A DNA stretch of 64,000 nucleotides from Chloroflexota bacterium (lineage in GTDB: Bacteria; Chloroflexota; Anaerolineae; Anaerolineales; Villigracilaceae), in NCBI GenBank assembly GCA_016223135.1, contig JACRPQ010000007.1, positions 1 to 64,000 on the forward strand, given 5' to 3'. A program made the translations under genes and the position numbers. Positions 15,413 to 60,799 of this stretch are shown here, in pieces. The notes below the pieces were generated by a model. It ran no database searches. It was not told the origin of the DNA and saw only the letters and a program-made list of their open reading frames with translations. Position 1 is the stretch's first letter, and the number at the start of each line of letters is the position of its first letter.

Positions 15413-16948
15413 CTACATCCCCCCGCGTTCCTTCATCGCCTTGCGGATTTCCTTTTCCAGGGTATCAGCCTTCTCCTCCAATTCCACAAGTTCCTTCAAC
15501 ATCTTCTCGCCTGCTGATTTGTCTTCGAGTGAGTTGAGGTTGATGCGCACGTTGTATCCGGCGGCGGTCAGCGCGGCGCGCGCCATGGCAAAACCCGACA
15601 TGGCATCGCTGATGGCGTTGAGGTTGCCGCGCCGGGCGCATTTGATCGCCAGTTCCATCACCTTCACCGAGTCGCTTGCCACGTGCAGCGGAACGCGCGC
15701 GGCGTTCAGCGTGGCGTTGATGATGGCAGCGCTGCGCGCGGTTTGTTGTTCCTCGGTCTCTTTGGGGAGTTTGAAGGTGCCCATCAGCGCCTCGAAGGCG
15801 GAGGCGTCGTCGTCCACGGCGTGCGTGAGTTCCTTGCGCAGGTTCTCCGCCATCACGCGAATCGCCTGCATTTCCGCCTCCACTTCGGCGTATTTCTTTT
15901 TGCCAATCGTCAATCCAGCCACCATGGAGACCAGCGCGGCGCCCATCGCAGCAGCATAGGCGGCGGCAGAGCCGCCGCCCGGAGTCGGCGTCGGGGAGGC
16001 TAATTCTTCAATGAACGAGGGGGAGGTAGCGGCGGAGTCCGAAGCGGCGGCGGAGGAGGCAGAGTAGAGTCTGGATTCGAGAATCTGTTCTTTTTGGAAT
16101 CCGTCCAGTTGGGTGTACCAGACCGCCGCATCCACCAGCGCATCCTGCGGAATCAGCCCGACCAGTTCGCTGTGATGGATGCCGACGCCGTAACGTTCGG
16201 CTTCCCGGCGGACGAATTCGACGACGCGGGCAAGGGGCGTTTCGTGAAAGTTGGTGAGGTTCATGGAGACTTGGGCGCGTCCTTCCACGAGAAGCCCCAA
16301 CGCCTTGACGTAGCGCAGTCCGCCCGAAGAGTGACGCACTGCTTTGGCGATTTTTTTGGCGATTTCCACGTCGCTGGTGGTGAGGTAGATGTTGTAGGCG
16401 ATGAGCGGGTTGCGCGCGCCAATGACGGTTGCCCCGGCTTTCGGCAGTTTGCTGGGACCGAAATCGGGTTTGCGCTCGGGGTTGGTTTCGATTTCGCTTT
16501 TGAGCGCTTCGTATTGTCCGCGGCGGATGTTTTCGAGGTTGACGCGGTCGGGACGCGTTGCCGCCGCTTCGTACAAATAGACGGGGATGCCGAGTTCCTC
16601 GCCCACGCGTTGACCCAAGCGGCGGGCAATCTCCACGCATTCCTGCATGGATACGCCGCTCAACGGGACGAAGGGACATACGTCTGTGGCGCCGATGCGG
16701 GGGTGTTCGCCGGTGTGCTGGTCGAGGTTAATCAGTTCGGCGGCGGTGCGGATGGCGCGGAAGGCGGCTTCTTCCACTGCAAGCGGCGGACCGGCAAAGG
16801 TCAGCACGGTGCGGTTGTGGTCGAGGTCGGAGGAGCGGTCGAGGAATTTGACTTCGGGGACCGACTGGATGGCGGCGGCAATTTGGTCTATCACTTCGGG
16901 ACGCCGCGCTTCGGAAAAGTTAGGGATGCATTCGATGAGGGGGGGCAT
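15413..16948 (-). CDS. Fused glutamate formimidoyltransferase / formimidoyl-THF cyclodeaminase
   Basis: 511 residues from the ATG at 16946-16948, which gives MPPLIECIPNFSEARRPEV, the family N-terminus. An open frame extends 54 codons upstream but only through tandem repeats. Residues 1-300 are the formimidoyltransferase (NFSE, HPRIGATDVCPFVPL, HHSELVGLIPQ). About 315-511 is the helical cyclodeaminase domain (SPTPTPGGGSAAAYAAAMGAALVSMVAGLTIG). The protein moves a formimino group from formiminoglutamate to THF and releases ammonia, giving methenyl-THF. It is the bacterial counterpart of the animal FTCD fusion. With formate-THF ligase 1.2 kb away, the area favours folate one-carbon chemistry. 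No other histidine-degradation gene is in view. Confidence 0.92.
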   Translation of the reverse strand: MPPLIECIPNFSEARRPEVIDQIAAAIQSVPEVKFLDRSSDLDHNRTVLTFAGPPLAVEEAAFRAIRTAAELINLDQHTGEHPRIGATDVCPFVPLSGVSMQECVEIARRLGQRVGEELGIPVYLYEAAATRPDRVNLENIRRGQYEALKSEIETNPERKPDFGPSKLPKAGATVIGARNPLIAYNIYLTTSDVEIAKKIAKAVRHSSGGLRYVKALGLLVEGRAQVSMNLTNFHETPLARVVEFVRREAERYGVGIHHSELVGLIPQDALVDAAVWYTQLDGFQKEQILESRLYSASSAAASDSAATSPSFIEELASPTPTPGGGSAAAYAAAMGAALVSMVAGLTIGKKKYAEVEAEMQAIRVMAENLRKELTHAVDDDASAFEALMGTFKLPKETEEQQTARSAAIINATLNAARVPLHVASDSVKVMELAIKCARRGNLNAISDAMSGFAMARAALTAAGYNVRINLNSLEDKSAGEKMLKELVELEEKADTLEKEIRKAMKERGGM

Positions 16949-46111: not shown

Positions 46112-46145
46112 CCCTCACCCTAACCCTCTCCCATAGGGAGAGGGT
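46112..46145. repeat. CCCTCTCCC/GGGAGAGGG palindromic word (copy 1)
   Basis: CCCTCACCCTA followed by ACCCTCTCCC-ATA-GGGAGAGGGT. The same word fills the middle of the element at 50573-50713. Confidence 0.7.
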
Positions 46146-46175: not shown

Positions 46176-47384
46176 TCAATCGTCGTCGTTGTCGTTATGA
46201 TTGTTATCATTCTCGTTCGTGTTGCCATTATTATTCGTGTTTGTGTTGTCATTATCATTCGTGTTCGTGTTGTTATTGGTTCCGCTGTTGGTATTTGGGG
46301 GAAGCGGCGTCGGCGAGGCAAAGGAATTGGGGGCAATGAACACGATCTCTTTCACGATGAAAATGTTCTTGTCATAATAGCCCTTTGCTTTTGCAAAAGC
46401 GCCAACAACGGGCGTTCCTTTCACTTCTTTCGCAAATTGGGTGTCCAGTACGATGCCGTTGACAACGATCAATTTGTTCTGGATGGCAGTGACAACACCT
46501 TCGATGTACGCTTCGTCAGGAGTTGTTGTTGCTGTGGGAGTCAATGTGGGAACTGGTGTAGGCGTTTCGGTTTTGGACGGGACGGCGGGTTTGACCTCCT
46601 CGACTTGAGTGGTCGCTTTCGCCTCTTCTTCCTCTTCTTGTTCTTGTTCCTTTTCGCCTTCAGGGAGGGGGGTGCCGGGCGGCAGGAGTTCGATGTGGTC
46701 AGCGAGGACGCCTGAGCCTTGGGTTGTGCCGCGCACACGCACCGCCGCGCCGATAGTGACGGTCTCGCCGGGCAGGCGGGTTTCGGCGGAGATGAAGACG
46801 GGGATGCCGGAGACCAGCCACTCGGTCTCAGATTGATGCGTGACGTAGCCGGAAAAGTCCACGTTGGCGGCACGTCCGCGGGCGAGAAGTTCGCGCAGTT
46901 CGTGCAGCCGTTCGTTTTCATGTTCGAGTTCGAGCGCCTCACGCTGTTCGGGGTTGAAGATAAAGAAGAGTCTGAGGTCTTCCCAAGTGCGTTTGACGGG
47001 GTAGAGGCTGTCGCCGGGCAGGGTGGTGGTGGAGGCGCGCACCAAGCCTGTGCCGCTGATAAAGAGGGCGGCAACGACCGTCAGCATGACAAAGGTGCGC
47101 CGCAGCGGCACAGACCAGTCGCGGCGAATGGGCGGGATAAAGAAGAAGGCTTTTCGTTCGCGTCGTTCGCGCAGTTCGGCGGCGCGCTGCAGGACGCGGG
47201 CGCGGCTTCGGCGCACGACCGTTTCAGATGGCAGCGGCACGGCGATGGACTTCGCTTTCACAGCCGCTTCGAGGAGGGGGCGCAGTTCGTCTGCCAGTTC
47301 GGGGCGGCGGCTGAGGATGGCATCCACTTCCGCGCCTTGTTCCAGTTCTTCGAGGCAAATTTCCAGAATTTCGTATTTATTCAT
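46176..47384 (-). CDS. Probable membrane anti-sigma factor with Asn/Asp tail
   Basis: 402 residues from the ATG at 47382-47384 (GGAGG upstream). The gene overlaps the sigma gene by eight bases. The N-terminal 80 residues are an acidic helical segment, EICLEELEQGAEVDAILSRR, followed by one transmembrane helix (about 100-118) and STTTLPGDSLYPVKRTWED, a DUF5667-type motif seen in proteins next to ECF sigma genes. Two beta segments (about 185-240 and 300-350) look like DUF5666, separated by a Glu-rich and Pro/Thr-rich linker. The last 35 residues are almost only Asn, Asp and Thr. The anti-sigma role is inferred from context. Confidence 0.8.
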   Translation of the reverse strand: MNKYEILEICLEELEQGAEVDAILSRRPELADELRPLLEAAVKAKSIAVPLPSETVVRRSRARVLQRAAELRERRERKAFFFIPPIRRDWSVPLRRTFVMLTVVAALFISGTGLVRASTTTLPGDSLYPVKRTWEDLRLFFIFNPEQREALELEHENERLHELRELLARGRAANVDFSGYVTHQSETEWLVSGIPVFISAETRLPGETVTIGAAVRVRGTTQGSGVLADHIELLPPGTPLPEGEKEQEQEEEEEAKATTQVEEVKPAVPSKTETPTPVPTLTPTATTTPDEAYIEGVVTAIQNKLIVVNGIVLDTQFAKEVKGTPVVGAFAKAKGYYDKNIFIVKEIVFIAPNSFASPTPLPPNTNSGTNNNTNTNDNDNTNTNNNGNTNENDNNHNDNDDD

Positions 47385-47934
47385 CTTTCGCCTCCCCAAT
47401 CAGCCGCTGGAGTGCGGCAAGCGCACGAAATTGGAGGGCTTTCACGGCATTGACTTTTTTCTTCATGGTTTGTGCAGTCTCTTCGAGCGAGTAACCCTGA
47501 CCAAAACGGAGCGCGAGAACATGCTGCTGCTGGTCAGTCAGTTGGGCAATGGCGGCGCGCACGGCGCTCTGTTCTTCCCGCGCGTCCACTTCGTCGTGAA
47601 CGACGGCAGCATGATCAGGGATGAGGTCCGAGAGCGCTTCGACAGGTCGGCGATAGAGGCGGCGCAGGTAGTCGTTGACGGCGTTGGAGGCGGTGGCAAT
47701 CAGCCAACCTTTGAGGCTGGACTGCGGTCCCTGGCGTTTTTGGGAGGCTTCCAGCAGGCGCAGGAAGACTTCGCTGGCAATGTCTTCCGCCGCAGCGTCG
47801 TCGTCAATGCGATAGCGGACGTAGCGATAGACCTCCGCAAAATAGCGGTCATAGATGGCGCCGATGGCTTGCGAATCCAGATTTTGCAAACCGTTCAATG
47901 CGCTTTGTTCGTCATAGCCAGACATGGTTTGCAT
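47377..47934 (-). CDS. ECF-type RNA polymerase sigma factor
   Basis: About 185 residues. Region 2 is AIGAIYDRYFAEVYRYVRYRI and AEDIASEVFLRLLEA, and region 4 is LTDQQQHVLALRFGQGYSLE with an HTH to KALQFRALAALQRLIG. The start is uncertain: ATG at 47934 or 47925, neither with a clear Shine-Dalgarno; the GTG/ATG further up looks too far. It overlaps the downstream anti-sigma gene by eight bases, the normal arrangement for a sigma/anti-sigma pair. Confidence 0.9.
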   Translation of the reverse strand: MQTMSGYDEQSALNGLQNLDSQAIGAIYDRYFAEVYRYVRYRIDDDAAAEDIASEVFLRLLEASQKRQGPQSSLKGWLIATASNAVNDYLRRLYRRPVEALSDLIPDHAAVVHDEVDAREEQSAVRAAIAQLTDQQQHVLALRFGQGYSLEETAQTMKKKVNAVKALQFRALAALQRLIGEAKDE

Positions 47935-48005
47935 GTTCTCGTGAAAAATAATTCTCGACCAGTGAAGAAGGGCAAGTTGCATGGGAGTATATCATTCCGG
48001 GCGGG

Positions 48006-49508
48006 TCACTGCGGAGGTTGAATGACTTGATATACAATCGCCTGGTCATCACGGTACACTTCCCGCAAACCGGGGTCGTGTTCCGCTTTGCGGATGAAGT
48101 TTCCATGCTTTAGGTCGGTATGTACATACTGCGCGCCAAATTTGGCGGCGATAATGCTTGAAGGATTGTCCACCTTGCCTTGTGTGATGAGCACCCACAG
48201 GTCGTAGAGTTCGGGGTCATATAATTGCATGTAGGTTGGATCGAGACCGATGAGGTAGGTGTTGTGCGTGTTGTAATAGAAGAGGCGCGGAAAGTCGTCC
48301 CAGTCGGTCTGAAAGACACGGGAGCCGGCCGGGGTGTTTTCTGCCAGCCATTGCGACGCACCGGCATACAGGTTGTAGGGCTTGGAATCGTTAATCGCTT
48401 CACGCGCCCTGGGAATGGATCTGCCAACACTGATCAACACTGCCGCTGAGAGCAAAAGCAGGGGGGCGTTTCTGACCAGTCGCATGAGGGGGGATGAAGT
48501 GGAAACGCGGCAGGCAAATTGACGGTCAAGGAAATGACCCGCCCAGGCAAAGGCGGCAAAGATGAGGGCAAAGGGGGGGAAGTATTCCACAAAGCGGCGC
48601 GCCTGCATGAGCATCAGTCCAAACAGCAGAGCGGCAAGCAGGGCAAAGGCGGTGCGGCTGTCCATGCGGCGCTCGGTCAATCCCAAAGCAAAGATTCCGC
48701 TGACGAAAAAGAGCAGGGAGAAAAGCGAATTTTCGAGGATTTGTTTGGTGTTGTAGGGGAACCATTCATTGCCAACGCTGACGGAGGTGGCGTCGGTCAA
48801 TTTGGGAAGCATGTGATTCCAGGAAAAGATGAGATTGGCGGGAAAGTAGGGGTTGATGATGACACCGAGGGCAATACCGGCGGCAATATAGAGCAGGGGC
48901 TTGTATTCGAAGCGCCGTTCCGCTACAAGAACTGCCAGGACATACAGACCGCCAAGCGCCAGCATCAGAGGAAAAGCATCGTACAACCAGACATAAACAA
49001 AAGAGAGGGCTGCCAGGCGCTTGTACTTTTTTTCGAACAGCCAGGCTGTTCCCAGCGCAAGGAACGCCAGCGAAAGCGACTGGGCGCGCGTCACGCTCAT
49101 GCGGTAGAGAAAAGCATCAGAAACGCCCAGCAGCGCCAGCGCCCACAACCAGTCGTAGGGAATGCGCTGACGATGAAACAGATGCCATATCGCCAGAAAA
49201 GCCAGGCTCGAAAAAATCACCGCTGACCATTTTGCGCCCAGGCGCAGATCGGGAAACAGGGTGAAAGGAATCAGCGCAACGTGATAGAGAAAATGATGGT
49301 CATAATATTCCTGCGGATTCAGGATGGAAAGCGGCAGCCAGGGAAATTCCGGCTTTAATCCTTCCGTGCGCATGATTTGGGCAAGTTTGATGTGATAAAA
49401 GCCGTCGTTGTCGGGCATGTTGGGCGTGGAAAATTGAATGAGCGCCATGCCCAGAACGAACAGCAGGAACATGCCTAGCGGGAGGAGGGGGTATCGCAGT
49501 GGTTTCAT
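48006..49508 (-). CDS. GT-C-like multi-pass membrane protein
   Basis: 500 residues with about 11-12 hydrophobic segments and a soluble C-terminal part (about 400-500). The first extracytoplasmic loop has TPNMPDNDGFYHIKLAQ (28-44) and a second acidic motif YYDHHFLYH (68-76), reminiscent of the catalytic Asp motifs of GT-C lipid-linked glycosyltransferases such as STT3 or PMT. The WWDYG motif of STT3 is absent. It is probably a glycosyltransferase using polyprenyl-phosphate sugars, but this rests on topology and loop motifs only. No Shine-Dalgarno is seen. Confidence 0.65.
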   Translation of the reverse strand: MKPLRYPLLPLGMFLLFVLGMALIQFSTPNMPDNDGFYHIKLAQIMRTEGLKPEFPWLPLSILNPQEYYDHHFLYHVALIPFTLFPDLRLGAKWSAVIFSSLAFLAIWHLFHRQRIPYDWLWALALLGVSDAFLYRMSVTRAQSLSLAFLALGTAWLFEKKYKRLAALSFVYVWLYDAFPLMLALGGLYVLAVLVAERRFEYKPLLYIAAGIALGVIINPYFPANLIFSWNHMLPKLTDATSVSVGNEWFPYNTKQILENSLFSLLFFVSGIFALGLTERRMDSRTAFALLAALLFGLMLMQARRFVEYFPPFALIFAAFAWAGHFLDRQFACRVSTSSPLMRLVRNAPLLLLSAAVLISVGRSIPRAREAINDSKPYNLYAGASQWLAENTPAGSRVFQTDWDDFPRLFYYNTHNTYLIGLDPTYMQLYDPELYDLWVLITQGKVDNPSSIIAAKFGAQYVHTDLKHGNFIRKAEHDPGLREVYRDDQAIVYQVIQPPQ

Positions 49509-49526
49509 CGAAGTGTTTTCTGTGAG

Positions 49527-49566
49527 AATGGAACATCTGGAGCGGCTTTACTCCAGATGTTCCATT
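49527..49566. terminator. 16-base perfect hairpin between two minus-strand genes
   Basis: AATGGAACATCTGGAG (49527-49542) and its exact complement (49551-49566) with an eight-base loop. It lies 33 bases after the stop of the DUF5666-like gene and just before the GT-C-like start, so it probably ends transcription of the former. It has only a short T run. Confidence 0.6.
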
Positions 49567-49598
49567 TGTGGCTTTATGCAGTGACGACAGTGAAGAGA

Positions 49599-50498
49599 TT
49601 AATCATCGCCGTTGGAGTTGCCGTTATCGTTGGAGTTGTCGTCATCATCGTCGCCATTGTCGTTCCCGTTGGAATTGCCGTTGTGGTCATCGTCATCGTT
49701 GCTGTTGGAGTTGCCGTTGTAGTTGGAGTTGCTGTTGCTATTGGAATTTTCATTGTAGCTGTCGTCATCGTTGTCGTTGCCGTTGGTGTTTTCGTTGCTG
49801 TTATCGTCGGGAGATTTCTTTTCAATCTCGCGGACGAAGAGTGAGCCGTCAGCAGCAGCCGCCAAATGAAGCTTGACATAATCGCCGACTGCAACGATGG
49901 TTTTGAATTTCGTAGAGGCAGTGATGGCGTAGGTCATGCCGTTGACGGTGACGGAGTCCATGGCGAGGGCTTCCACAACGCCGTAAACTTCCTGTTCGTC
50001 ATCGGCTTCATTATCGTTGCCGTTCATGTTGGCGTTGTCATTGTCATTATCGTTGACATTGCCGTTCATGTTGTCATTGTCATTGGCGTTATCGTTGACG
50101 TTGCCGTTCATGTTGTCGTTGTCATTGGCGTTATCGTTGACGTTGCCATTCATGTTGTCGTTGGCATTGTCATCAGGGGAGGCTACCTCAATTTTCAAGG
50201 CGAGTATACTGCCATCCGCTGCGACCTTCGCCTCCACTTTCACGATGTCACCAACTTGGATACCGGCGTCAATCGAAGCGCCTTCCACACTGATGACTTG
50301 TCCGCTGATGGTCCACTGCGATGCGTCCATGGCTTCGACGTTACCAGTAAAGACAACCTCGGTATATTGCGAACCCGCCGTATCATCGGCAGATCCGCTT
50401 TCCCGCACGGCTCCACTGGGCAGTGTACCGCTGCAGGCGCTCAACAGGTAAGCCCCGATGAGCAATACCGAGATGAGAAAACGATGTGATTTATTCAT
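49599..50498 (-). CDS. DUF5666-like lipoprotein with Asn/Asp repeats
   Basis: 299 residues. Lipobox LSAC at about residue 19-22. Two similar beta domains, at about 45-108 (VVFTGNVEAMDASQWTISG) and 168-228 (VYGVVEALAMDSVTVNGMTY), fit DUF5666. They are joined by three near-identical 14-residue units (NDNMNGNVNDNAND; 42-base DNA repeat, 50030-50170), and the protein ends in about 70 residues of Asn, Asp, Ser and Gly. GGAGG precedes the ATG. Similar tail and domains occur in the anti-sigma protein at 46176-47384, so the two are likely related. Possibly a flexible, metal-binding surface protein (inference). Confidence 0.8.
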   Translation of the reverse strand: MNKSHRFLISVLLIGAYLLSACSGTLPSGAVRESGSADDTAGSQYTEVVFTGNVEAMDASQWTISGQVISVEGASIDAGIQVGDIVKVEAKVAADGSILALKIEVASPDDNANDNMNGNVNDNANDNDNMNGNVNDNANDNDNMNGNVNDNDNDNANMNGNDNEADDEQEVYGVVEALAMDSVTVNGMTYAITASTKFKTIVAVGDYVKLHLAAAADGSLFVREIEKKSPDDNSNENTNGNDNDDDSYNENSNSNSNSNYNGNSNSNDDDDHNGNSNGNDNGDDDDDNSNDNGNSNGDD

Positions 50499-50572
50499 AC
50501 CGAACCTCCATTTCTGAATCTGAGTTGGTTTAACCTATCAGTCGCTGGAGGAAGGAAAAAGTTATGCCAAAA

Positions 50573-50713
50573 TGCTTTGTTGCAAACAGAGAAAACGGAA
50601 TGAATTTTCCCATCTTGCCCTCACCCCTTGCCCCTCTCCCAATGGGAGAGGGGTGGGGGTGAGGGAGAAAAGCGCGCGGAAAGCGAACATCAGACAATCT
50701 TTGCAACAGAGCA
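50573..50713. repeat. Inverted-repeat element, TIR TGCTYTGTTGCAA (copy 2)
   Basis: 141 bases with ends TGCTTTGTTGCAA (50573-50585) and TTGCAACAGAGCA (50701-50713), differing at one base. The interior is different from copy 1 and contains the CCCTCTCCC/GGGAGAGGG palindromic word. It lies in the gap between the DUF5666-like gene and the FHA gene. Confidence 0.75.
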
Positions 50714-50768: not shown

Positions 50769-51422
50769 TCAGGCGGGGGGATTATCCAGCCGAATACCGT
50801 GTCCGCGCACGGTGGTGATGTATTGATGAGTGGGGTCAAGGGCGGCGATTCGTTCGCGCAGGCGGCGCACCAACGCATCCAAAGCCTGGTCGGATACTCC
50901 GGCGGATTGCTCGTCACCCCACACTTCCGCCACCAAGTCGGCGCGGGTGACCACTTCGCCGTTGTTCTTGTAGAGCAGCCAGAGCAGTTTAAATTGCTGC
51001 GCTGAAAGCGGCGGCACCAACTGCTGATGATTGACCCACACGCGCCTGGACTTCAAATCCATCATCAAACGCCCCGAAGCGGGTGAGCCTTCCAGCAGCG
51101 GCGTGGTGGCATCTGAAACGAGAAAGATGAACTGCTGCGCCATGGCAATGGAAAGCAGATCGCCGTCCTGCAAGACAACGGGGGCAGTCAGCAGGCTGCC
51201 GTTATGATGGGTGCCGTTCTTACTCCCCAGGTCTTCGAGGATGACGCCTTCCGGCGTCGGCGTCAGGCGGGCATGGAAGCGCGAAATCTGCCGGTCAGTG
51301 ATGACAACGTCACAACTCGGCTCGCGCCCCAGAACGAGGGTTTTGTTCAACTGCCAGCGCTGTCCCTTCAAGGGACCGTCCTGCGCCACCAGCAAGGGAG
51401 AATCTTCCTGAAGTAATGTCAT
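50769..51422 (-). CDS. FHA domain / winged-helix DNA-binding regulator
   Basis: 217 residues from the ATG at 51420-51422. Residues about 15-100 are an FHA domain (LGREPSCDVVITDRQISRFH, LEDLGSKNGTHHNG), which binds phosphothreonine peptides. About 120-215 is an OmpR/PhoB-type winged helix (LSAQQFKLLWLLYKNNGEVV, VRRLRERI, YITTVRGHGIRL). There is no receiver domain, so control is likely by binding a phosphorylated partner. It is divergent from a Ser/Thr kinase gene across a structured 335-base gap. The start lacks a clear Shine-Dalgarno and a GTG five codons upstream is possible. Confidence 0.9.
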   Translation of the reverse strand: MTLLQEDSPLLVAQDGPLKGQRWQLNKTLVLGREPSCDVVITDRQISRFHARLTPTPEGVILEDLGSKNGTHHNGSLLTAPVVLQDGDLLSIAMAQQFIFLVSDATTPLLEGSPASGRLMMDLKSRRVWVNHQQLVPPLSAQQFKLLWLLYKNNGEVVTRADLVAEVWGDEQSAGVSDQALDALVRRLRERIAALDPTHQYITTVRGHGIRLDNPPA

Positions 51423-51459
51423 GGGTTTCTGAATCACCAGCCATCAAACATCACACGCT

Positions 51460-51757: not shown

Positions 51758-52765
51758 TTGCTCCCTCCCCTCAAGAATGAGGAGGTATTGCGCGGCCGCT
51801 ACCAGATCCGCGAACGGATTGGTCAGGGCGGCATGGGCGCCATTTACCTTGCGGATGACCTGCGCCTCAAGGGACGTCAGTGCGCCCTGAAGGAAGTTGA
51901 GTACGACCGCGCCCTCCCGGAAAACGTCAGAGAAGAAGCCCGCGCACAGTTTTTGCGCGAGGCGACTGTCTTGGCGCGTCTCGACCACCCCAACCTGCCC
52001 AAAGTCTCTGATTTCTTCTCCATCGGTCCGCGCGATTACCTCGTGATGGACTACATCCCCGGTAAAGACCTGCGCGCCCTGCTGCTCGAAGCGCGCCGCA
52101 ACAAACGCTTTCTGCCCGAAAAGGAAGTGCTTTCGTGGGCGGAACAAATCGCCAATGCGCTCTCCTTTCTTCACAGCCAGGAACCGCCCATTGTCCACCG
52201 CGACATCAAACCAAGCAACATCAAACTCATGCCGCATGGCTTGATTAAACTGGTGGATTTTGGGCTTGTGAAAGTCCTCGCCCCCGAGGAAGTGACCATC
52301 ACCATCATCCAAGGGCAAGGCACCGCCCTTTACACGCCGCTCGAACAATACGGCGGCAGCGACGCCCATACCGACATCCGCTCAGACATCTACTCTTTTG
52401 GCGCAACGCTTTACCACCTGCTCACCAACGAACCTCCCGCCGACGCCCGCAAACGCTTCCTCTCCCCCGACAGCCTGATCCCGTTACGAGAAATCAATCC
52501 TTCGCTCTCGCCGCGCACCGAAAAAGCCGTGCTGTGGGCAATGTCCATGCACCCGGACGAACGTCCTCATACCATTGCCGAATTCAAAGAAGCATTACTG
52601 GGGCACCGCGATACACCCACCTTGCCCGTTTCCCCTCTGCGAATACGAAACCTGCCGTCTTCTCCTTCCCTCGCTGAATACCTTGCCAAACCTGCAGAAG
52701 CCGTACTGGCGTGGGGTGCGGCGGTCTTGTTTCTGCTCAGTTTGCTCGCGACGCTGATCCGCTGA
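51758..52765 (+). CDS. Ser/Thr protein kinase, TTG start, C-terminal membrane anchor
   Basis: 335 residues. Hanks-type kinase with glycine loop IGQGGMGAIY (about 21-30), Lys45 in CALKEVEY, HRDIKPSNI with the catalytic Asp, DFGLVK, and a degenerate APE region (LYTPLEQ). The last 22 residues are a transmembrane helix, and no PASTA or other sensor follows. The TTG at 51758 is chosen because AAGGAG lies five to six bases before it. It is divergent from the FHA regulator, its plausible target, and its 3' end overlaps the convergent GH3 gene by 29 bases. Confidence 0.92.
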   Translation: MLPPLKNEEVLRGRYQIRERIGQGGMGAIYLADDLRLKGRQCALKEVEYDRALPENVREEARAQFLREATVLARLDHPNLPKVSDFFSIGPRDYLVMDYIPGKDLRALLLEARRNKRFLPEKEVLSWAEQIANALSFLHSQEPPIVHRDIKPSNIKLMPHGLIKLVDFGLVKVLAPEEVTITIIQGQGTALYTPLEQYGGSDAHTDIRSDIYSFGATLYHLLTNEPPADARKRFLSPDSLIPLREINPSLSPRTEKAVLWAMSMHPDERPHTIAEFKEALLGHRDTPTLPVSPLRIRNLPSSPSLAEYLAKPAEAVLAWGAAVLFLLSLLATLIR

Positions 52766-60057: not shown

Positions 60058-60663
60058 TTAATCTCCTTCAAGGTTAATGTTTTGGTCGCTCAATTGATCG
60101 CGCAGCGCAAGCAGGGTGCGGTGGTACAGGCTTTTGACTGCGCCTTCGCTGCGTCCCATGATTGCGCCAATCTCCGCATTCGACAGATTCTCGACGAATT
60201 TGAGAATGAGCAGATGCTGCCGTTCGGCGGGCAGGCGGCGGATGATTTTGAGAAGCGCCTCCTGCTCCTGCGAGCGGACGAGGTTCTTTTCGGGATGCTC
60301 GCCTTTGACCGGCAGAATCGGCAGGTCGTCGAGAGGGATTTCCTGCTTGCGGCTGCGGTCGCGGTGCCAGTTGGCAACCAGGTTGTGAGCGATGCGGTAG
60401 AGCCACGCCGAAAATGGAACGCCGCGGTCGGTGTAATTGTGAATGTGATTCATTGCCCGCTGAAAAACGCGGGCGGTCAGGTCTTCTGCGTCATGCAGAT
60501 TCCCCGTCCGGTAATAAACGTAGTTGAAGATACGGTCAACGTGGCGCTCATAGAGCCGGCCAAACGCATCCCGGTCGCCCTGTGAGGCAAGCAACAGCAG
60601 TTCTTCCTCGTTGAATTCGATCTCCTGCACTCGTCTGGTCCTACCGGCAGGGTTAACACACAT
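60058..60663 (-). CDS. Sigma-70 family factor, ECF-type
   Basis: About 201 residues from the ATG at 60661-60663; a GTG nine codons earlier is possible. Region 2 is FGRLYERHVDRIFNYVYYRTG and AEDLTARVFQRAMNHI, and region 4 is LPAERQHLLILKFVENLSNA with the HTH up to SEGAVKSLYHRTLLALRD. It resembles SigE/ECF41-size factors but has no extra C-terminal domain. Two bases separate its stop from DegV. A TATACT on the minus strand (60699-60694) may be its -10. The small membrane protein two genes on may be its regulator. Confidence 0.9.
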   Translation of the reverse strand: MCVNPAGRTRRVQEIEFNEEELLLLASQGDRDAFGRLYERHVDRIFNYVYYRTGNLHDAEDLTARVFQRAMNHIHNYTDRGVPFSAWLYRIAHNLVANWHRDRSRKQEIPLDDLPILPVKGEHPEKNLVRSQEQEALLKIIRRLPAERQHLLILKFVENLSNAEIGAIMGRSEGAVKSLYHRTLLALRDQLSDQNINLEGD

Positions 60664-60799
60664 AACCCCGCCGGATTTGAGAAGTTGCACAAGAGTATAA
60701 CATGCGCATTACAAACTCTGATAACCGCGTCGGATTTGGCGATTCGGTATAATGAAAATTTGTGATTGGCGGCTGGCATCGTAAATAAAACATTTGTGC

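Follow-up and report, generated by a model that had tools for sequence, protein, structure and literature searches.

A probable extracytoplasmic function sigma switch for an envelope electron-transfer regulon in Anaerolineales-type Chloroflexota, with acidic tails of one class on its predicted anti-sigma factor and lipoprotein

In a 64,000-nt stretch of a Chloroflexota genome (contig JACRPQ010000007.1 of assembly GCA_016223135.1, positions 1–64,000; "the window" hereafter denotes this whole stretch), four genes on the minus strand encode, in transcription order, a lipoprotein with DUF5666 domains, a 500-amino-acid (aa) membrane protein, an extracytoplasmic function (ECF) sigma factor, and a 407-aa predicted anti-sigma factor. 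We consider it probable that this gene set works as an ECF switch that regulates itself and controls an electron-transfer regulon of the envelope, in which the anti-sigma factor shares its type of C-terminal tail with the exported products. The features on which this reading is based are as follows.

50540–50566, minus strand: ECF-type promoter CATAACTTTT-N12-CGACT, about 67 bp 5' of the lipoprotein start
49599–50498, minus strand: DUF5666 lipoprotein, 299 aa, lipobox Cys22 (Pfam, alignment)
50187–50348, minus strand: lipoprotein oligonucleotide/oligosaccharide-binding (OB) domain 1, DUF5666 (Pfam, structure model; CusF-like fold)
50015–50173, minus strand: 42-bp tandem repeat, 3.8 copies with 90% match, encoding the Asn/Asp linker
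49821–49985, minus strand: lipoprotein OB domain 2, DUF5666 (Pfam, structure model)
49602–49811, minus strand: lipoprotein C-terminal Asn/Asp/Ser/Gly tail, 70 aa (from the sequence; low confidence, disordered, in the model)
48006–49508, minus strand: 500-aa membrane protein, weakly STT3 (oligosaccharyltransferase)-like (TIGR04154 profile, below cutoff)
47377–47982, minus strand: ECF sigma factor, BldN-like, 201 aa (Pfam, NCBIfam, match to a PDB sequence)
46176–47399, minus strand: predicted anti-sigma factor, 407 aa (domains, model, adjoining sigma in 79 of 80 relatives' loci)
47031–47111, minus strand: predicted anti-sigma transmembrane helix, aa 97–123 (model and sequence)
46866–47024, minus strand: anti-sigma DUF5667 helical hairpin (Pfam, model)
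46689–46850, minus strand: anti-sigma OB domain 1, DUF5666 (Pfam, model)
46335–46511, minus strand: anti-sigma OB domain 2, DUF5666-like (locus profile match, model)
46179–46295, minus strand: anti-sigma C-terminal Asn/Asp/Thr tail, 39 aa (from the sequence; low confidence, disordered, in the model)

The four genes are likely to form one transcription unit, because the intergenic gaps are short (90 bp between the lipoprotein and membrane protein genes and 23 bp between the latter and the sigma gene) and the sigma and anti-sigma open reading frames (ORFs) overlap by 23 nt. A whole-genome search of the 3.82-Mb assembly (E ≤0.001) found three DUF5666 matches in total, all of them in the lipoprotein and the anti-sigma factor, and a single DUF5667 match, in the anti-sigma factor. 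To place the set among its relatives, a sigma-alignment scan of named genomes gave 140 candidates, and the counts of relatives' loci given here cover the best 80. These 80 were named as Chloroflexota, Anaerolineae, or Anaerolineales, or by some genera that we take to be Chloroflexota, and the closest came from an Anaerolinea sp. metagenome-assembled genome (MAG) whose sigma factor was 88% identical. The earlier note on this DNA had linked the lipoprotein to the sigma/anti-sigma pair, and this linkage recurred: the lipoprotein lay upstream of sigma at 55 of the 80 loci (50 of 69 where the upstream sequence exceeded 3 kb), and the genes share the ECF-type promoter described below. An anti-sigma-type gene followed within 1.5 kb downstream of sigma at 79 of the 80 loci, and the membrane protein gene was present at 30. 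When 61 family genomes were searched by profile, 36 contained DUF5666 and 45 contained DUF5667, and at the family loci that were opened the lipoprotein and anti-sigma genes usually lay a few kilobases apart with sigma in between. As judged from these gene neighborhoods, the set of lipoprotein, sometimes STT3-like protein, BldN-like sigma factor, and DUF5667-DUF5666 anti-sigma factor recurs in Anaerolineales-type Chloroflexota.

The 201-aa sigma factor contains Sigma70_r2 (46.5 bits) and Sigma70_r4 (45.6 bits) in Pfam, which is the domain content of an ECF (group IV) sigma factor. Among PDB sequences, its best match was 6dxo_A (E = 1.9e−29), which we take to be sigma-BldN with RsbN, and the runner-up reached 5.5e−12. 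Against the BldN family model TIGR02952 it scored 150 bits, under the curated cutoff of 206, and it is thus BldN-like but not BldN. The 407-aa protein carries DUF5667 (PF18915; 48.3 bits, cutoff 27) and two DUF5666 stretches according to Pfam. The whole-protein scores for DUF5666 (PF18914; cutoff 27) were 75.8 bits for the lipoprotein and 30.9 bits for the 407-aa protein, whose first DUF5666 domain scored 25.6 bits by itself, under the cutoff. In a structure model of this protein with a mean predicted local distance difference test (pLDDT) score of 80.5, helices at residues 8–85, assigned to the cytoplasm, were followed by a long helix at 97–123, the DUF5667 hairpin at 133–174, OB domains at 179–238 and 297–355, and a low-confidence tail. 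We read the helix at 97–123 as a transmembrane segment; a flank rich in Arg and Lys lies on its N-terminal side. In sequence comparison with PDB the whole protein matched nothing better than E = 0.18, its N-terminal domain found no RsbN or anti-sigma chain among five matches up to E = 10, and a fold search placed OB-domain proteins such as CusF on top, with none at E <0.001 among the best 50 matches. The zinc motif Hx3Cx2C is absent from residues 1–96, and NCBIfam anti-sigma models matched weakly (23 and 21 bits). The architecture of the protein and its nearly constant position next to sigma suggest that it acts as the anti-sigma factor. At L060 (9228–10751), and likewise at L237, a 507-aa protein with DUF5667 and three matches to anti-sigma-type N-terminal domains stands behind a normal anti-sigma gene.

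The lipobox of the lipoprotein reads LSAC, and its Cys22 is invariant across the 30 rows of the lipoprotein alignment. Several particulars of the earlier note held on closer analysis. Pfam finds the two DUF5666-like domains that it had described in the lipoprotein, and the tail is indeed 70 residues long. The three 42-base units placed at 50030–50170 are contained in the 3.8-copy tandem repeat, and the anti-sigma tail, put at about 35 residues, has 39. The lipoprotein model (mean pLDDT 68) is mostly at 90 or above in the OB blocks, 39–64 in the linker, and 48–58 in the tail. The best fold match of OB domain 1 was CusF (Z = 9.9, root-mean-square deviation 1.9 over 65 residues), and SilB and SilF were also matched, which raises the question of whether the OB domains sense or chaperone copper or silver in the manner of CusF and the regulon responds to these metals. 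His211 in domain 2 fits this idea, with His at that column in 12 of the 30 rows. However, domain 1, the domain that matched CusF, contains no His, and no column of the 30 rows held an invariant or near-invariant His or inner Met, as judged without a residue-by-residue alignment of the CusF metal ligands. Moreover, an OB fold held in common does not demonstrate function. We therefore treat the resemblance to CusF as a match of modeled fold only, and regard a metal-responsive regulon as very improbable. A plasmid search with the lipoprotein gave no match.

The promoter connects these genes with each other and with further operons. A near-identical element lies at a similar distance 5' of the lipoprotein start in relatives, and the sites of 65 relatives gave the consensus CCGTAACtTTTt-N11-CGACTA, from which the window promoter differs at the first, third, and last letters (GCATAAC, CGACTG); the element resembles the BldN promoter, CGTAAC-N16-CGTTGA. 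The pattern RTAACYTTT-N12-CGAC matched 71 times in the 80 loci versus once for the backwards control, and the flanks outside the search pattern were also conserved (the two preceding C positions at 94% and 95%, the following T and A at 83% each). The element was found 5' of the ORF start in 48 of the 55 lipoproteins, at a distance of 60–72 bp in 34 of these 48, and 5' of sigma at 13 of the 25 loci without a lipoprotein. The 29 family genomes with the module, assigned by hand (one, G238, joined them once a promoter match had led to the opening of its locus), contained 85 matches versus 29 in the control, with at least one in every genome; the 32 family genomes without the module contained 5 versus 23. 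By hand count, 30 of the 85 matches stand before the module or before an unlinked lipoprotein, and 28 of the 29 genomes have such a match. The unlinked lipoproteins L066 and L055 (cut by the contig end) retain the promoter, and unlinked homologues of the 500-aa membrane protein in two other genomes (L126, L132) are also preceded by it. The element itself is established by its conservation, and the neighboring sigma factor is its presumed reader.

Beyond the module, 16 promoter sites in 15 genomes lie before an operon for a two-cluster 4Fe-4S ferredoxin, a Pyr_redox_2 flavin adenine dinucleotide (FAD) oxidoreductase, a cytochrome-b561-like protein, and at least one multiheme c cytochrome. The ferredoxin, the cytochrome-b-like membrane protein, and a multiheme cytochrome were each present at all 16. 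Pfam was run on examples, namely the ferredoxin and FAD protein of the genome that contains the window and two membrane proteins; the two cytochrome-b561-like proteins scored 25 and 23 bits, below the cutoff of 30.1. The window's own genome has this operon at G000:C3:896176 (L107, L247), with cytochromes of 30 and 17 CxxCH motifs. Twelve of the 16 operons encode a cytochrome whose last two residues are DD, mostly preceded by a brief run of Gly and Glu, and one cytochrome of L262 ends with six Asp; the cytochromes end otherwise in L253, L258, and L259, and L254 is cut. A further 10 promoter sites in 10 genomes precede an exported protein with an acidic or Gly/Asp end, and ApbE is encoded downstream at all 10. 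This exported protein is weakly PepSY-like (one of two tested, below cutoff), and no flavin mononucleotide (FMN)-binding domain was found by Pfam in the ApbE neighbors tested; at L118, L120, and L158 the ORF as called starts too far 5' and so includes the promoter. The promoter also occurs 5' of a Gly-rich membrane protein at L114, L135, and L154, and of a multiheme protein containing S-layer domains at L125, with a look-alike at L128. At L156 it precedes a second multiheme cytochrome of G087, at L141 a TSP3 protein, and at L143 a further DUF5666 protein. At the level of sequence, the regulon itself is well supported, and its members taken together suggest electron transfer in the envelope or outside the cell.

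The second line of evidence concerns the tails. Both the anti-sigma and the lipoprotein tails are predicted to face outside, because basic residues precede the transmembrane helix of the anti-sigma factor and Cys22 is invariant in the 30 lipoproteins; the predicted topology, with one transmembrane helix plus the lipobox, thus agrees with the earlier proposal of outward-facing tails. A survey of tails against gene context, which that proposal had called for, gave a non-random result. When a tail was defined by the last 30 residues (D+N+E ≥35% and D+N+E+S+G+T+H ≥75%), it was found in 47 of 54 lipoproteins and 57 of 77 anti-sigma factors of the relatives' loci, and in 1 of 752 other ORFs, which were not sorted into secreted and cytoplasmic. 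The sole tailed ORF among the 752 (L178, 7324–7860) encodes an extra exported protein between the lipoprotein and sigma, inside the module. The window contains a single run of seven Asn/Asp codons, whereas 0 of 100 dinucleotide shuffles contained one. A census of such codon runs was made in the 61 genomes and eight loci were opened; the raw counts are not used, because at least two matches (L070, L072) are Ile/Val runs of the opposite strand. Among the others, L067 and L071 encode acid-tailed PepSY-like proteins beside ApbE, L073, L161, and L163 fall in other ORFs, and L069 in no ORF. The PepSY-like protein at L067 (2068–2607) has a ten-Asp run and ApbE downstream, on a contig (G238:C70) without an exact promoter match.

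The composition of the tails varies by species (Asn/Asp, Asn/Glu, Ser/Asp, or mostly Asp) but agrees within a locus, L175, L215, and L237 being exceptions with weak or unlike tails. Across 52 of the 54 lipoprotein/anti-sigma pairs (L219, with a broken anti-sigma reading, and L214, with tails identical to those of L213, were left out here and in the motif tests below), the Mantel correlation of tail composition was 0.46; it was 0.44 when sigma distance was controlled for and 0.43 when GC content was controlled for as well, and each value was reached by 0 of 5,000 permutations. In 31 of the 52 loci, with 3 ties, a tail was more similar to that of its own partner than to that of the nearest relative's partner; therefore, part of the agreement reflects ancestry. 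Judged by composition and gene context, these comparisons show the tails to be a shared class common to the anti-sigma factor and the lipoprotein.

What such tails are for is a separate question, and three explanations compete with a shared role in the regulon. The main one is that the tails are near-neutral, arising by slippage of short codon repeats on the disordered ends of secreted proteins, and that they match through genome-wide mutational bias without a specific role. Tandem repeats occur in both tails, N-x-N alternation far exceeds that in shuffled sequences (590 versus 211 and 442 versus 151), Asn, Asp, Ser, Gly, and Glu exchange freely, and the linker between the OB domains differs in length among three species of the genus (67, 58, and 56 aa), all as slippage would produce. 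The repeat, whose number the earlier note thought might vary between strains, thus varies in length between species. In contrast, general bias does not readily account for so rare a tail among the unsorted other ORFs of the same loci, the Asn content of the tails is not explained by the GC content of the locus (r = 0.14 and 0.19), and controlling for sigma distance and GC leaves the match in place. The tail is also not confined to the sensor-lipoprotein pair, because the promoter-linked exported protein at the 10 ApbE sites is mostly acid-ended too. We consider slippage without a role unlikely. An equally unlikely explanation holds that the tails are polyanions that bind calcium or other divalent cations and glue the lipoprotein and the anti-sigma factor into a surface layer, with the free cation as the signal. 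The mean acid charge of 0.39 and 0.34 per residue in the two sets of tails, the low number of Lys/Arg (0.31 and 0.96 per tail), and a content of about 3% hydrophobic residues are consistent with it, as is the TSP3 protein at L141, since TSP3 repeats are of a calcium-binding type. However, composition ranges from Asp-rich to Asn/Glu- or Ser-rich, and inspection of the tails, made without a profile search, revealed no ordered motif for calcium. Co-regulation together with a shared tail class is more economical than the direct contact, calcium binding, or surface aggregation that the earlier note had suggested.

The third explanation is that the STT3-like protein glycosylates the Asn-rich tails, so that the lipoprotein would be a glycoprotein and sigma would sense glycosylation. 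The 500-aa protein, which the earlier note had not mentioned, matched TIGR04154 (STT3) at 25.4 bits (E = 4e−6), a lead only and far under the model cutoff of 450. Tails are richer in Asn where the membrane protein gene is present than where it is absent (0.33 versus 0.16 for the lipoprotein), an association uncorrected for ancestry. Against this, the window lipoprotein tail contains no N-x-S/T. N-x-S/T counts lie under those of shuffles, and this depletion persists with Asn positions held, being clear only where the membrane gene is present; yet the mirror motif S/T-x-N is equally low or lower there (34 versus 15 and 30 versus 29). S/T-x-N being at least as rare as N-x-S/T, neither directional use nor avoidance of the sequon is indicated, and the depletion is explained by N-x-N alternation and repeats. 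Depletion of N-x-S/T was accordingly rejected as evidence on glycosylation either way. Altogether, a glycosylation-sensing switch appears highly unlikely.

Several observations weigh against the reading of the set as a switch with a regulon of its own and matched tails. In the window's own genome alone, at ≤1 mismatch, the promoter pattern matched 3 times versus 11 for the backwards control; what supports the promoter is its position and its conservation. In an order-level search, hand counts gave no excess outside the family (28 versus 32 backwards), as against 33 versus 7 within it; 6 of the 28 outside matches (in G013, G113, G156, G114, G054, and G003) lie ≤1.3 kb upstream, on the same strand, of DUF5666 or DUF5667 matches. 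The 85 matches in module genomes include chance ones, and single sites are therefore untrustworthy alone. Seven lipoproteins lack a promoter before the ORF start; in four of them the ORF is called from too far 5' and encloses it, a fifth has a close match, and L167 and the truncated L231 have none. Twelve of the 25 lipoprotein-free loci have no promoter before sigma, some of them being cut by contig ends. L037 (G011) keeps sigma, anti-sigma, and a DUF5666 protein, both of the latter with Gly/Pro-rich tails, and has no promoter match. The Mantel tests remove shared ancestry in part only. Finally, the cytochromes are mostly without long acidic tails, the 30-heme cytochrome of the window's own genome has no acidic end, and the electron carriers are predicted as such from their domains and heme motifs.

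The switch that we consider probable would operate as follows. The lipoprotein, STT3-like protein, sigma factor, and anti-sigma factor would belong to one autoregulated operon. At rest, the cytoplasmic helical domain of the anti-sigma factor would hold sigma at the membrane, and an envelope signal reaching its outer DUF5667/OB/tail part would free sigma. The freed sigma would then read the consensus element and turn on its own operon and that for the ferredoxin, FAD oxidoreductase, cytochrome-b-like protein, and multiheme cytochrome c, and in other genomes also the exported, mostly acid-ended protein together with ApbE. The products may form an electron-transfer layer. In the weakest step of the proposal, the tails would keep these proteins together in a single surface layer rich in cations, via cations or wall polymers, and the anti-sigma factor would sample the layer built by its own regulon; here we infer a role for the tails. 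A bolder version, which we regard as doubtful, is that this is a dedicated Anaerolineales switch for extracellular electron transfer in which the anti-sigma factor senses by resemblance: its OB domains and its species-specific acidic tail would match those of the surface lipoprotein under its control, it would sit in the same layer, and sigma would be freed according to the completeness or charge of that layer. If that were true, the tail type would be a co-evolving assembly tag that differs between species.

The closest known arrangement is that of BldN, given that the closest solved structure of the sigma factor is 6dxo_A. In Streptomyces, BldN directly activates the genes for the surface chaplins and rodlins, its anti-sigma gene adjoins, rsbN has a BldN-dependent promoter, and RsbN is described as unusually divergent (PMC4255298) and as membrane-anchored (PMC8103513). 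Unlike in that system, the anti-sigma factor here has an outer DUF5667/OB/tail part, and the predicted targets are redox proteins and an acid-tailed lipoprotein; by sequence, the switch would work like BldN but is not classed as BldN. As a membrane protein encoded next to sigma, the anti-sigma factor also resembles class I anti-sigma domain (ASDI) proteins, but it lacks the Hx3Cx2C of zinc ASDIs and has only the weak NCBIfam anti-sigma matches; zinc-less ASDIs exist. According to one report, 72% of Chloroflexi ECFs are ASDI-associated (PMC7406223). Anaerolineales with very large multiheme c cytochromes have been described as perhaps capable of some extracellular electron transfer, with no porin-cytochrome complexes found in them (PMC7399161). 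The available part of that paper names no regulator, ferredoxin-FAD operon, or acid tails. The ApbE sites recall the ApbE-dependent extracytosolic flavoprotein systems (PMC11334425) in having an ApbE gene, an exported partner, and membrane proteins, but differ in the weakly PepSY-like partner and the lack of an FMN-binding domain in the tested neighbors. In a limited open library (titles and abstract starts of the top results), no regulon of this kind was described, and a search there for DUF5667 or DUF5666 turned up DUF5666 only.

Some neighboring features of the window were also recorded. The palindrome CCTCTCCCA..GGGAGAGG flanks the four-gene set at 46125–46143 and 50633–50651; it has no further copy in the window at ≤2 mismatches, its count was reached in 0 of 100 shuffles, and it may be a mobile or repetitive extragenic palindromic (REP)-like intergenic element. 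Upstream of the operon lie genes for a regulator with forkhead-associated (FHA) and DNA-binding domains (50769–51437) and a Ser/Thr kinase (51758–52765), both kept in L164, L166, L167, L170, L171, and L173, with FHA alone in L165; a phosphorylation input into the sigma switch is possible. Outside this operon, a second ECF sigma gene (60058–60690, minus strand, 210 aa) was found with the sigma profile, and it has a close copy in L035 at 16234–16866.

Anaerolineales MAGs come from groundwater, lakes, and bioreactors. The sigma factor, the anti-sigma factor, and a readable promoter would tie multiheme cytochromes to two domains of unknown function, and the regulon should therefore be predictable in unculturable genomes. 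Furthermore, if the matched tails matter, the sensor would carry the tag of its own output, in a sequence that changes rapidly and yet co-varies.

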